Source: Arthrobacter sp. SLBN-112 (GTDB lineage Bacteria; Actinomycetota; Actinomycetes; Actinomycetales; Micrococcaceae). From it: a stretch of 64,000 nucleotides of DNA. Position numbers and translations under genes: made by a program. The first letter of the stretch is position 1; each line of letters starts with the position of its first letter. Of the stretch, positions 2,851-57,406 are shown one piece after another. The DNA lies in the NCBI RefSeq assembly GCF_006715225.1, contig NZ_VFMU01000001.1, positions 2,356,001 to 2,420,000 of the forward strand, read 5' to 3'. Under the pieces are notes generated by a model. It made no database searches, had not been told where the DNA came from, and was given only the letters and a program-made list of their open reading frames with translations.

Positions 2851-3825
2851 GTGCACAACCACGCCCTGACCCCCTCCGGGACGCTGACCGCAGGCCCGCA
2901 GTCCGGCCCCGTCATCTCCGCCGAGAACCTGACCAAGACCTATGGTGACGCGGCGGCTGTGGACGGGATCTCCTTCACCGTGCCCGCAGGGGAGTCCTTC
3001 GGGCTGCTGGGACCCAACGGAGCGGGCAAATCCACCACCATGAAGATGATCGGCGGCGTGACCCGCCGGACCGCCGGGCGGCTCAGCATCATGGGACTGG
3101 ACCCGGACACGCACGGGCCCGAGGTGCGCGCCCACCTGGGCGTGGTGCCGCAGCAGGACAACCTGGATGAGGAACTGCGCGTCCGCGACAACCTCCTGGT
3201 TTACGGCCGCTACTTCGGCCTGCCCATGAGCTACCTGAGGCCGAAAGCGGACGAACTGCTGGAGTTCGCCCAGCTGACGGACAAAGCCAAGTCCAAAGTG
3301 GACGCACTCTCCGGCGGCATGAAGCGCCGGCTCACCATCGCCCGCTCCCTGATCAACGAGCCGCGGATCCTGCTCCTGGACGAGCCCACCACCGGACTGG
3401 ATCCGCAGGCCAGGCACATCCTGTGGGACCGCCTGTTCCGGCTCAAGGAGCAGGGCGTCACCCTGATCCTCACCACCCACTACATGGATGAGGCCGAGCA
3501 GCTCTGTGACCGGCTGGTCGTGGTGGACAAGGGCCGGATCATGGCGGAGGGTTCGCCCGCGCAGCTGATCCGGCAACATTCCACCCGGGAGGTGGTGGAG
3601 CTGCGTTTCGGTTCGGAGCGGAACGCCACCATCGGGGCCCAGCTGGAAGGGATCGGGGAGCGTCTTGAGGTGCTGCCGGACCGGGTGCTTGTCTACGCGC
3701 ACGACGGCGAGTCAGCCCTTGAGCAGGTAGCGGCCCGCGGCCTGAGGCCGCTGACATCACTGGTCCGCAGGTCGTCGCTGGAGGACGTGTTCCTTCGGCT
3801 CACCGGCAGGAGCCTCGTTGACTGA
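2851..3825 (+). CDS. ABC-2 type exporter, ATP-binding protein (DrrA/NodI-like)
   Basis: ATPase subunit of a drug- or polyketide-exporter-type ABC system. It has Walker A GPNGAGKST near residue 55, signature LSGGMKRRL near 152, Walker B LLLDEPTTGLDP near 175 and the H-loop TTHYMDEAE. The 324 residues include a C-terminal extension typical of the DrrA/NodI group. GTG 2851 lies 6 nt after TAGTCT (2839-2844), which suggests a leaderless mRNA. Two permease genes follow with overlaps, completing the transporter. The substrate cannot be read from sequence. Confidence 0.92.
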   Translation: MHNHALTPSGTLTAGPQSGPVISAENLTKTYGDAAAVDGISFTVPAGESFGLLGPNGAGKSTTMKMIGGVTRRTAGRLSIMGLDPDTHGPEVRAHLGVVPQQDNLDEELRVRDNLLVYGRYFGLPMSYLRPKADELLEFAQLTDKAKSKVDALSGGMKRRLTIARSLINEPRILLLDEPTTGLDPQARHILWDRLFRLKEQGVTLILTTHYMDEAEQLCDRLVVVDKGRIMAEGSPAQLIRQHSTREVVELRFGSERNATIGAQLEGIGERLEVLPDRVLVYAHDGESALEQVAARGLRPLTSLVRRSSLEDVFLRLTGRSLVD

Positions 3826-54806: not shown

Positions 54807-54878
54807 ATGGAGCGAAACATCGCACCGGTTGTATGGGAGGCCGGACCCGGCCTCTTGGCCGAGCCGCCTCACCAATAA
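54807..54878 (+). CDS. Short leader ORF before phoH2
   Basis: A 23-codon frame ([10 protein letters not shown] ... EPPHQ, stop TAA at 54876-54878) has the strongest Shine-Dalgarno in the region, GGGGAGG at 54793-54799, 7 nt before the ATG. It ends 34 nt before phoH2. Mycobacterial phoH2 is preceded by a small antitoxin gene, phoAT; this ORF is in the same place but much shorter, so it may be an antitoxin-like peptide, a translational-coupling leader or an attenuator. Expression is unproven. Confidence 0.45.
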
Positions 54879-54912
54879 CAATTCCGGGCTGGCGCCCGGG
54901 GCTGGAGTCGAT

Positions 54913-56331
54913 GTGGCTACTTCTGAACAACTGCCCGAGGTCCTGTTTGGACAGGGCGGAAAAGCTACCTCTCGCGCCGAGCGAGCCACCTCTGAAGCCG
55001 GCGCAGCAATTGATGCTGCGGCCGGTTTTGCTGTCTCCGGAAGGGACGCCGACATCCACACCTTCGTGATTGACACCTCCGTCCTCCTCTCCGATCCGCG
55101 GGCACTCCTGCGGTTCGCTGAGCATGAGGTAGTGGTTCCCGTCGTGGTCATCACCGAACTCGAAGCCAAGCGGCATGACCCCGAACTCGGCTACTTCGCA
55201 CGGAAGGCCCTGCGGCTCCTGGATGACCTCCGGGTCAAGCACGGCGGCCTGAACCAGCCCCTCCCCATCGGTGACGAGGGCGGCACCCTCATGGTGGAAC
55301 TCAACCACATCTCCTCTGAGGTGCTGCCGTTGGGCTTCCGCAGCGGGGACAACGACAGCCGCATCCTCGCCGTCGCCAAGAACCTGGCCAACGAAGGACG
55401 CAACGTCACCGTCGTGTCCAAGGACCTGCCCATGCGGGTCAAAGCCTCCGCCATGGGCCTCACCGCCGACGAGTACCGCAACGAACTGGTCAAGGATTCC
55501 GGGTGGACGGGCGTTGCCGAAATCGAAGCCGATGAACAGGACATAGCCACCCTGTACGGCCACGAACCGGCCTATATCCCGGCGGCCGCCGAACTGCCCG
55601 TCAACACCGGGCTGGTCCTGCTGTCCAACCGCGGTTCCGCGCTGGGCCGGGTGGGCGCGGACAAGCAAGTGCGCCTGGTCAAGGGCGACCGCGACGTGTT
55701 CGGCCTCCACGGGCGGTCGGCTGAGCAGCGGCTGGCCATCGACATGCTGATGGATCCCGCCGTCGGCATCGTTTCCATTGGCGGCCGCGCGGGCACCGGC
55801 AAGTCCGCGCTTGCCTTGTGCGCCGGCCTGGAAGCCGTGCTGGAACGCCGCGAACACCGCAAAGTGATCGTCTTCCGGCCCCTCTACGCGGTGGGCGGCC
55901 AGGAACTTGGCTACCTGCCCGGCTCCGAGTCCGAGAAGATGAATCCGTGGGCGCAGGCCGTGTTCGACACCCTCGGGGCCCTGGTCAGCCAGGAAGTGGT
56001 GGAGGAGGTCATGGACCGCGGCATGCTCGAGGTCATGCCCCTCACCCACATCCGCGGACGCTCACTCCACGATGCCTTCGTGATCGTGGACGAAGCCCAG
56101 TCCCTCGAAAAGAACGTCCTCCTCACCGTCATGAGCCGTATTGGCCAGAACTCCAAGATCGTGCTCACCCACGACGTCGCCCAACGGGACAACCTGCGCG
56201 TCGGACGCCACGACGGAATCGCCGCCGTCGTCGAAACCCTGAAGGGACATCCCCTCTTCGGCCACGTCACCCTGACCCGCTCGGAACGTTCGCCAATCGC
56301 CGCCCTGGTCACGGAACTGCTCGAGGGCTAA
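54913..56331 (+). CDS. phoH2: PhoH2: PIN RNase domain fused to PhoH helicase
   Basis: Sequence-specific RNA helicase/RNase. The N-terminal PIN domain (about 35-165) shows the acidic residues in [12 protein letters not shown] and [12 protein letters not shown]; the PhoH ATPase has Walker [15 protein letters not shown] near 289, [20 protein letters not shown] and Walker [21 protein letters not shown] near 395. GTG 54913 is chosen for GGAG 6 nt upstream and gives 472 residues; a TTG at 54829 is an alternative. Mycobacterial PhoH2 acts as the toxin of a toxin-antitoxin pair. Confidence 0.92.
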
Positions 56332-56343
56332 ATCACCTAAGCA

Positions 56344-56379
56344 AAGGGCCGTGGCCGGGTTCGCCGGGCCGCGGCCCTT
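56344..56379 (+). terminator. Terminator after phoH2
   Basis: AAGGGCCGTGGCC (56344-56356) pairs with GGCCGCGGCCCTT (56367-56379) with one mismatch around a 10-nt loop, 12 nt after the stop. The following GTGCGTG is not a U-tract; it begins the repeated region. Confidence 0.75.
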
Positions 56380-56758
56380 GTGCGTGTCCGTGGCTCCGTC
56401 CGTCCGCACCGAGCGCATCGCCGTCGCTTAGACACCTCCCGGCGTGCGGCTCCGGTCGCTGGGCGACCTGCGCAGCACTCTGGTCGGCGATGCGCTCCTA
56501 TACGAAGCACCCGGTCCGGACGTGTGCAGAGGCGCACCTCAACGCATGGAAGCCCACAAGCCGGGTTGCGGTCCTTCTTGTAGGAGCGCATCGCGGCGCA
56601 TCGGACGCCGCAGGTCGCCCAGCGACCGCAGATGGCCCTGTGCGTTGTAAGCGTCGTCCCGAGGGCCCCGACACGAGCTTGCGAGCGTTGGGAAGGGACC
56701 TACGCGCTAAGCGACGGAGAAGGACCGTGGCCCGGCATACCCAGACACGGACAGGCAC
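56380..56758. repeat. Degenerate long palindrome of unknown kind
   Basis: This 379-nt gene-free stretch contains four blocks that recur inverted and in mirrored order: D, GTGCGTGTCCGTGGCT (56380-56395) against 56758-56743 with 2 mismatches; C, CCGTCGCTTAG (56421-56431) against 56717-56707; A, CGGTCGCTGGGCGACCTGCG (56453-56472) against 56628-56609; B, GCGATGCGCTCCTA (56487-56500) against 56594-56581. Pairs A and B share one centre, C and D another, as if 57 bp had been gained on the right. Block A is itself a hairpin (GGTCGC/GCGACC). A third GAGCGCATCGC lies at 56411. Confidence 0.8.
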
Positions 56759-57406
56759 TCAACGCACGCCAAGGAACTTCGCTGCTGCTTCGTGGCCCTC
56801 TACTTGCAGCTGCCAGTCGGGCCTCTTGAACGTTTGCGGGGTGACGCGGACGTGTTGGAGTGTTTCGACTTTGGGGCCCCAGGCTTTGCGGCTGGTGCCG
56901 TTGAGTTCGTAGCCGAGGGAGCGGGACACGCCCAGGGAAGCGCTGTTCCAGGTGGCGGCCTCGGATTCGGCGGCTTCCGCCCCGAGCCAGTTAAAGGCCC
57001 AAAGGACGACGGCGGCACGCATTTCCTTGCCAAGGCCGCGGCCCTGGACGGACTGCTTGAGCCAGGATCCGGTGGTGACTGTCCGTAGAGCCGTGAAGTC
57101 ACTGGCTCCGACGTCCTGGCAGCCGATGAACTGGCCTTCGTGCCAGATTCCGAGGAGCAGTGTCCAGTTTTCGGGCCTGCATTCAGCGCGGCAACGCCAG
57201 TACCAGCGCGCCATGTTGGGGCCCAGTTCCTCGTCCGGCAGCTCCGTCCAGGGAGTGCTGAACGGATTCCGGCCGGCGTCGTGGATTCCGCCGCGGGCCG
57301 CTGCCACCGCCGCGGGAATGTCCTGGTCGGTAATGGGGCGCAGTTCCAGCCGCGGGGTGGTGAGCGTGAGGTTGAACAGCGGCCAGATGGAGCCCAGGGT
57401 AGTCAT
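56759..57406 (-). CDS. GNAT family N-acetyltransferase
   Basis: A 215-residue acetyltransferase of the RimJ/RimL type: LTTPRLELRPITDQDIPAAV near 15, WTLLLGIWHEGQFIGCQDVG near 80, the acetyl-CoA loop SVQGRGLGKEMRAAVVLWAF near 118 and the C-terminal ATWNSASLGVSRSLGYELNG near 151. ATG 57406 lies 6 nt after TAGGCT (57418-57413, minus), probably leaderless. Its stop codon abuts the outer edge of the long palindrome. The acceptor molecule is unknown. Confidence 0.9.
   Translation of the reverse strand: MTTLGSIWPLFNLTLTTPRLELRPITDQDIPAAVAAARGGIHDAGRNPFSTPWTELPDEELGPNMARWYWRCRAECRPENWTLLLGIWHEGQFIGCQDVGASDFTALRTVTTGSWLKQSVQGRGLGKEMRAAVVLWAFNWLGAEAAESEAATWNSASLGVSRSLGYELNGTSRKAWGPKVETLQHVRVTPQTFKRPDWQLQVEGHEAAAKFLGVR

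Follow-up and report, generated by a model that had tools for sequence, protein, structure and literature searches.

A strongly covarying structured repeat at gene ends in Arthrobacter and related genera, found as a divergent pair between phoH2 and a GNAT acetyltransferase gene

Introduction

Set beside the account given in PMC3733652, REP families are the nearest described kind of sequence to the element reported here. REPs are introduced there as extragenic sequences of 20-40 bp, in high copy, downstream of genes, forming inverted dimers and often tagged with GTAG, and the GTAG-type REPs are hypothesised to be moved by RAYT transposases (PMC3733652). Our element shares with REPs and BIMEs its extragenic position, mostly downstream of genes, and its frequent arrangement in inverted pairs (as at the 18 paired phoH2 loci that were fetched). 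An unpaired GTAG is also present in 50/81 parsed elements, but it lies inside the element between two stems. The element differs in its length of ~123-180 nt here (124 positions in the model), its number of only five copies, its conserved internal loop and the lack of a RAYT in its own genome, and the REP-like candidate of the initial annotation thus falls outside the REP definition.

With intrinsic terminators the element has in common its slot at gene 3′ ends and an RNA-like G-U polarity (43:5 in the control hairpins described below). In contrast to them, it contains a conserved internal loop and an apical domain, and its folded strand is in most cases the antisense strand of the gene that it faces. 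No T run 3′ of the element was seen by eye in the flanks examined, where the sequence is often CCCAACCACGG; it is therefore not a classical intrinsic terminator. The candidate structured ncRNAs of Rfam likewise show covarying stems around nearly invariant loop nucleotides, but our element reaches no family's gathering score: between positions 56200 and 56900 of the window (the whole 64,000-nt stretch of Arthrobacter sp. SLBN-112 DNA that was analysed) the sole match, a weak one, is cold-seep-1, with 19.1 bits against a cut-off of 125.8, and over seven loci only a tRNA reaches gathering score.

Integron attC sites are folded from the bottom strand, lie just after a stop codon and carry the core sites GTTRRRY / RYYYAAC. 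The folded strand and the placement after a stop codon are common to both, whereas many copies of our element stay with the same neighbour genes and no integron integrase (TIGR02249) is above cut-off in 61 genomes. Weaker TIGR02249 matches occur in 61/61, and none of 14 control genomes passes the cut-off either, so this search is without a positive control. MITEs are also small, dispersed and of inverted symmetry, but a search for transposons with PF01797 and TIGR02249 gave the element no partner transposase, and neither a TIR family nor a target duplication was recognised; within this scope the earlier suggestion of a MITE relic finds no support.

As far as these searches reach, the element is an uncatalogued structured intergenic repeat and candidate structured RNA; no published description of it was found among the titles and abstract openings of the open-access papers listed. 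It is well defined and strongly covarying, and sits at gene ends across a common soil genus.

The phoH2-GNAT locus

The initial annotation described mirrored blocks in this intergenic region, three of them exact, with two centres, and this description is accurate. The 20-bp block (56453-56472 / 56609-56628) and the 14-bp block (56487-56500 / 56581-56594) are exact, inverted and centred on 56540.5, while the exact, inverted 11-bp block (56421-56431 / 56707-56717) and the outer D block (56380-56392 / 56746-56758; 12/13 matching) are centred on 56569. One block is itself a hairpin, as had been noted, and the extra occurrence of a block sequence was also recovered: GAGCGCATCGC is found on the plus strand at 56584-56594 and again at 56411-56421, with an inverted site at 56487-56497. 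The segment has 35 start positions of exact 11-mers with an inverted copy, a count reached in 0/2000 first-order simulations (mean 0.74, maximum 14). A repeat search returned a 77-nt inverted repeat at 74%. On folding, which had been proposed for both strands, the region is far more stable than its shuffles, with z-scores of -4.8 and -3.6.

Two resources were used to delimit the parts of the locus: alignment A1, made of 34 elements from loci found by DNA similarity (BLAST), and the covariance model R1, with 124 positions and 45 pairs. The parts are the following.

54829..56331, plus strand: phoH2 (PIN and PhoH domains; Pfam PF13638, PF02562), ending upstream of copy 1
56344..56379, plus strand: plain terminator-like hairpin adjoining phoH2, outside the element (16-nt arms, 88% complementary)
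56399..56521, minus strand (the folded strand): copy 1 (arm 1, 'type II' core); model match 110.9 bits, E 2.2e-20, structure from alignment A1
56428..56435, minus strand: internal loop of copy 1, 3′ side, GTGTCTAA on the minus strand
56454..56468, minus strand: apical hairpin P3 of copy 1, matched exactly, in inverted form, by P3 of copy 2
56487..56493, minus strand: internal loop of copy 1, 5′ side, GCATCGC on the minus strand
56502..56521, minus strand: outer stem P1 of copy 1, 5′ arm, partner 56402-56421 (A1 columns 1-20 with 159-178)
56560..56739, plus strand (the folded strand): copy 2 (arm 2, 'type I' core), with module C inserted; model match 107.1 bits, E 1.5e-19
56560..56579, plus strand: outer stem P1 of copy 2, 5′ arm, partner 56717-56736 (alignment and covariation; also a pair in the repeat search)
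56588..56594, plus strand: internal loop of copy 2, 5′ side, GCATCGC
56613..56627, plus strand: apical hairpin P3 of copy 2, GGTCGC CCA GCGACC (alignment A1 and covariation)
56650..56706, plus strand, with ends uncertain by a few bases: module C (the 57-bp gain), a small hairpin repeat with conserved loop GAGCTTGCGA; absent from copy 1
56707..56717, plus strand: CTAAGCGACGG, internal loop 3′ side and inner stem of copy 2 (alignment A1; exact inverted block)
56759..57406, minus strand: GNAT acetyltransferase gene, convergent with phoH2 (Pfam PF13302)

The 3′ end of copy 1 faces the phoH2 stop codon and that of copy 2 faces the GNAT stop codon. Comparison between loci shows that the locus is two divergently oriented copies of a structured element and not one decayed palindrome; the earlier proposal of two inverted copies of one element was right in this respect. 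The 57-bp gain that it placed in one copy is module C, itself a repeat, which sits within copy 2, on the internal loop's 3′ side, and accounts for the 57-bp offset between the block centres. The D pair, which had been counted as part of the repeated element, falls outside both covariance-model matches, i.e., in flanking sequence.

Module C also occurs on its own, as a strongly conserved hairpin repeat, both in the same genome (L340 and L341, near 3094580 and 3217987) and elsewhere in the genus (L325-L339). By eye, its stem letters change together (GACGC/GCGTT, GAACC/GGTTT, AATC/GATT) around the loop GAGCTTGCGA.

Structure and covariation

The element is composed of a variable outer stem, an internal loop GCATCGC / GTGTCTAA, a variable second stem and a GGTCGC..GCGACC hairpin. 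Across the 34 elements of A1, 31/45 pairs change on both sides, and none of 500 shuffles reaches any of the five covariation measures; versions of the structure slid along the alignment give 0.05-0.10 compared with 0.39 for the element. The signal comes from the outer stem (18/20 pairs) and the second stem (13/14), while helix 2 (4/5 pairs invariant) and the apical hairpin (5/6 invariant) offer no covariation support either way. The architecture of stem, internal loop, stem and hairpin is maintained by this covariation. The structured RNA proposed in the initial annotation, for which it had named covariation as a check, is supported in this respect. The gaps between blocks, read there as unconserved, are mostly stem arms that change together. 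As the stems vary while the pairing persists, the reading of a diverged relic that retains some of its blocks is too simple.

The inner stem pairing GCATCGC with GCGACG, which is part of R1 and of the covariation test, was replaced after copies from other loci had been compared. In these copies the four bases that precede GCATCGC are paired with the four that follow CTAA (e.g., GCGA, GGGA, GGGG), and the conserved part is therefore an internal loop. This 4-bp inner pairing is Watson-Crick in some copies and contains a tandem G-A mismatch in 64/81; the counts of inner pairings and of GTAG are based on the 81/135 elements that fit a strict text pattern, the other 54 not being used. The loop itself is kept to a high degree, with GCATCGC in 125/127 elements and GTGTCTAAG, GCTAAG or CCTAAG in 123/127. 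In other genera of the family the part above the internal loop is replaced by short unrelated hairpins and the loop stays. Across genera, the preserved part is the internal loop GCATCGC / GTGTCTAA enclosed in its stems, and together with R1 this loop provides a concrete basis for functional testing.

In one short copy (L086, 3028-3118) the loop letters change on both sides at once, from GCATCGC to GCCTCGC and from CTAA to CGAA, hinting at a possible A-U pair inside the internal loop.

Folding strand

The two strands of the element are not equivalent. In the outer stems of the 34 elements from BLAST loci, the modelled strand has 70 G-T against 9 A-C oppositions, and 27 elements have more G-T, none more A-C and 7 are ties. 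The phoH2 locus supplies 55:5 of this total and the other loci together 15:4. Among the model-found elements, 126/127 could be scored (one has too few pairs) and give 253:39, with 102 elements in favour, 6 opposed and 18 tied; the model may favour copies with a G-T bias in this larger set, whereas the 34 came from blastn loci. By locus group, 7/8 lean to G-T, and the two-element group L142/L149 gives 0:1. Hairpins near phoH2 served as a positive control: the best one within 75 nt of the gene, read on the sense strand at 20 loci, gives 43:5 for G-T vs A-C, and the sense strand folds better in 19/20. The modelled strand of the element is the more stable on folding in 34/34 and in 127/127 cases.

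Since G-T exceeds A-C on one strand and the same strand folds better, a folded single strand, either RNA or ssDNA, is likely the selected form; no such strand bias would be expected of a cruciform in duplex DNA. The polarity would be accounted for by ssDNA as well as by RNA.

Distribution

The recurrence of the block arrangement, a check named in the initial annotation, was observed both in the same genome and across the genus. In the genome itself BLAST identified another pair, almost complete, at a distance of 48 kb (2460629-2460965), together with pieces at 879079, 3094580 and 3217987, and R1 gives five matches. In the genus, the DNA search has matches in 133/150 genomes and R1 in 32/41, with 0-8 matches per genome. 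In the family, R1 matches 26/197 genomes in 7/32 genera, or 19 genomes in 6/32 genera after eight weak matches with a different core are dropped. With stricter filters in the phylum it matches 2/396 genomes, namely the present genome and another member of the genus. The short form was searched for with an exact pattern, designed such that the long genus form is missed; this pattern is found in 4/396 genomes of the order, all of the same family and including one genus outside the six, and the reversed control pattern once. Because few candidates were scored per genome (4 in the genus DNA search, 8 in the phylum and 18 in the family), absences in the whole-element searches are soft. Among the matches listed for the long form (at least 117 stretches), 77/80 records are from Arthrobacter, Pseudarthrobacter (a member of the Micrococcaceae) and Paenarthrobacter; the remaining three, from metagenome bins of unrelated groups, are probably due to chance.

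Scanning 100 loci with R1 gave 175 matches, of which 40 were dropped as opposite-strand shadows of stronger ones. Eight of the 135 kept (L087, L089, L091-L096; 36-42 bits, other genera) were left out for their different core, and 127 elements remained. A closer inspection of the eight showed that L089 and L092-L096 (the latter at about 3030-3160), from another genus, share the GGTCGC..GCGACC hairpin around a differing core (GGAGCGGGGATGGATTT ... AAATCTTACTG) and are possibly a sister family. The weak matches L087 (3022-3125) and L091 (3010-3114), from two genomes of one genus, have the same apical hairpin and lie between genes that are rpoB-like and rpoC-like by protein sequence.

Genomic context

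The element recurs at several orthologous sites: between phoH2 and the GNAT gene, by a two-domain ABC ATPase gene beside a TetR gene, and at a siderophore-interacting protein gene. Further sites are a DHDPS-family / ROK pair, a SpoU methylase / nitrilase-like pair and a Crp-like gene, and there are also singletons. With simple gene calls, 114/127 elements have the 3′ side of their folding strand towards a gene 3′ end and 13/127 towards a gene 5′ end, several of the latter resting on doubtful gene calls. At most loci the neighbouring genes converge, and there an element would be expected to face a gene 3′ end whichever way it is oriented. The informative tandem loci mostly agree, e.g., siderophore-interacting protein / GDSL lipase, where the folding strand is antisense to both neighbours; the exceptions include L101, L085 and L129.

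Occupancy differs between close species, with copies present or absent between related ones. In a set of 20 phoH2-GNAT loci, taken from genomes chosen mainly for lacking DNA matches, 18 are without the element, and by eye 17/18 of these spacers hold another hairpin, either a plain GGCCGTGG-type or a second repeated hairpin, with remnants of the element in L167 and L175; the phoH2 spacer of L169 is about 20 bp and has no hairpin. Hairpins similar to the plain one at 56344..56379 occupy the same place in genomes without the element. At siderophore-interacting protein loci the element is present in 10/25 and missing in 15/25. As it is missing at so many orthologous sites (18/20 of the chosen phoH2 loci and 15/25 of the siderophore-interacting protein loci), the element is dispensable. 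Between convergent IclR and Rieske genes (Pfam) it occurs in 1/30 loci, L342, which is the same place in genome G019 as L134; the 30 loci come from 38 genomes with a Rieske gene, and 23 have an alignable IclR match. By eye, most of the other IclR-Rieske loci have a different, unrelated plain hairpin and two have almost no spacer.

The second repeated hairpin of the phoH2-GNAT slot was seen in L159, L160, L164, L165, L171, L173, L176 and L177, all from genomes without the element. Its outer stem varies, whereas its core (CTCTGCGTGC ... GCACGCTGCCGG, shortened in L165) is conserved.

Inversion of the paired copies

In 7/18 paired phoH2 loci the two copies are in one order, and in the other 11 this order is mirrored. 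When the two orientations and absence are treated as three states on a 55-row tree of phoH2 proteins, 20 changes are required, as against 26.3 on average after shuffling. G037 and G051, which are sister genomes (support 100/98), have opposite orientations, and their spacers match better when one is inverted (266/321) than in the same direction (231/307). The spacers of L018/L021 give 383/463 inverted vs 319/410 in the same direction, and those of L013/L099 261/331 vs 251/330. The simplest reading is that the phoH2-GNAT cassette has truly been inverted, more than once; replacement by another copy can mimic inversion in the weaker case. Overall, the element indicates that gene-end structures are exchangeable at a locus and invertible as a unit, a point of relevance to the insulation of convergent genes in bacteria and to the origin of REP-like repeats.

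Possible role and alternative explanations

We tentatively favor a role at transcript ends, in which the element may act as an RNA structure that limits read-through between neighbours. An RNA polymerase arriving from the far side would transcribe the folding strand just before entering the neighbour gene antisense, and the folded structure would end, process or stabilise the read-through transcript, so that the neighbour is spared antisense transcription. At convergent genes, each of the two copies would lie at the border of one gene and act there on the transcript coming from the other, more distant gene, and a protein or another factor may make contact at the conserved internal loop. The covariation, the G-T polarity, the folding strand, the position at gene 3′ ends and the slot shared with other hairpins all count in support of this role. 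Against it stand the lack of a T run, the plain terminator-like hairpin retained beside the element at phoH2, the many orthologous sites without the element and the 13/127 elements facing gene 5′ ends, which do not fit. At the tandem loci whose folding strand is antisense to the gene on either side, the transcript has to come from a different promoter.

A bolder form of the transcript-end reading, which we regard as distinctly unlikely, is that of an exchangeable and invertible transcript-end RNA class in the Micrococcaceae that blocks antisense run-in to the neighbour, with the loop as candidate active site. Its two-sided loop (NNAG - 4 bp - GCAUCGC / GUGUCUAA - 4 bp - CG) would be self-cleaving or bind a dedicated factor, everything above the loop would be replaceable, and another RNA hairpin could be inserted into the loop.

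A regulated attenuator, with the outer stem set against the terminator hairpin, was also considered; by eye it fits phoH2 and L146 and does not fit L143, L103 and L112, and was dropped as a general rule.

Of the alternatives, a non-autonomous mobile element survives best and is still an unlikely explanation. The folded single strand, ssDNA or RNA, would here be needed for movement, the element would land at terminators or gene ends, and structure, polarity and position would reflect mobility and not a service to the host. This would agree with copies at several unrelated loci that are absent from orthologous sites in other species, with the presence of another repeat, module C, within copy 2, and with the largely fixed polarity relative to the adjacent stop codon, as in attC sites. 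The 5′ outer-stem arm of the IclR-Rieske copy L134 matches that of copy 2 of the window in 18/20 letters, an indication that the stem moves together with the element; L125, the copy at phoH2 in that genome, is a weaker match to copy 2. However, the copies are few (five here) and many stay at the same orthologous loci across the genus, there is no Y1/RAYT transposase in 60/61 genomes including the present one (PF01797 matched in 1/61, and in 5/14 control genomes), no integron integrase passes the cut-off in the 61 genomes, and a target duplication was not recognised, the element-free sites differing too much from the filled ones to show a clean insertion. A search of plasmid and phage collections, as possible origins, returned no match in either at E 1e-5.

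We consider it very unlikely that the element is a small regulatory RNA gene that would be transcribed from its own promoter, antisense towards the neighbour's 3′ end, and act in cis or in trans. Its RNA-like polarity and covariation could be explained in this way, as could the siderophore-interacting protein / GDSL lipase tandem loci with their folding strand antisense to both neighbours. On the other hand, the 5′ ends of paired copies are only 4 nt (L102) or 38 nt (L013) apart, with larger gaps elsewhere, leaving little room for two promoters; by eye, no conserved promoter-like sequence is present upstream, solitary copies included, and occupancy varies between close species.

Slightly less probable again is a decayed REP/BIME pair without present function, whose pairing would be kept by templated correction between the arms. 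The inverted arrangement at gene 3′ ends and the GTAG adjoining a stem do recall REP dimers, but the loop letters are kept in 125 and 123 of 127 elements while the stems change, and correction between arms would not by itself be expected to keep unpaired bases or to favor G-T on one strand. Length, copy number and the absence of RAYT do not fit either. Finally, chance similarity in unconstrained GC-rich DNA, the outcome that the initial annotation had named as its refutation, is practically negligible, given that the block count was reached by none of the 2000 simulations and that DNA matches are present in 133 of the 150 genus genomes.

Other repeats at gene ends

The intergenic regions of the element also contain clusters of direct repeats of the GTGAGNGAGCGTT type (reverse AACGCTCNCTCAC), seen in L144, L148, L098, L141, L194 and L172, where they sit upstream or in place of the element, and gene ends in the genus therefore look like mosaics of several repeat families. 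Terminator-like hairpins or repeats with sequence of the GTCGAGCTTGTCGA type or the GGTTGAGC type also recur at gene ends of several genomes, in L343, L348, L351, L106 and L083.
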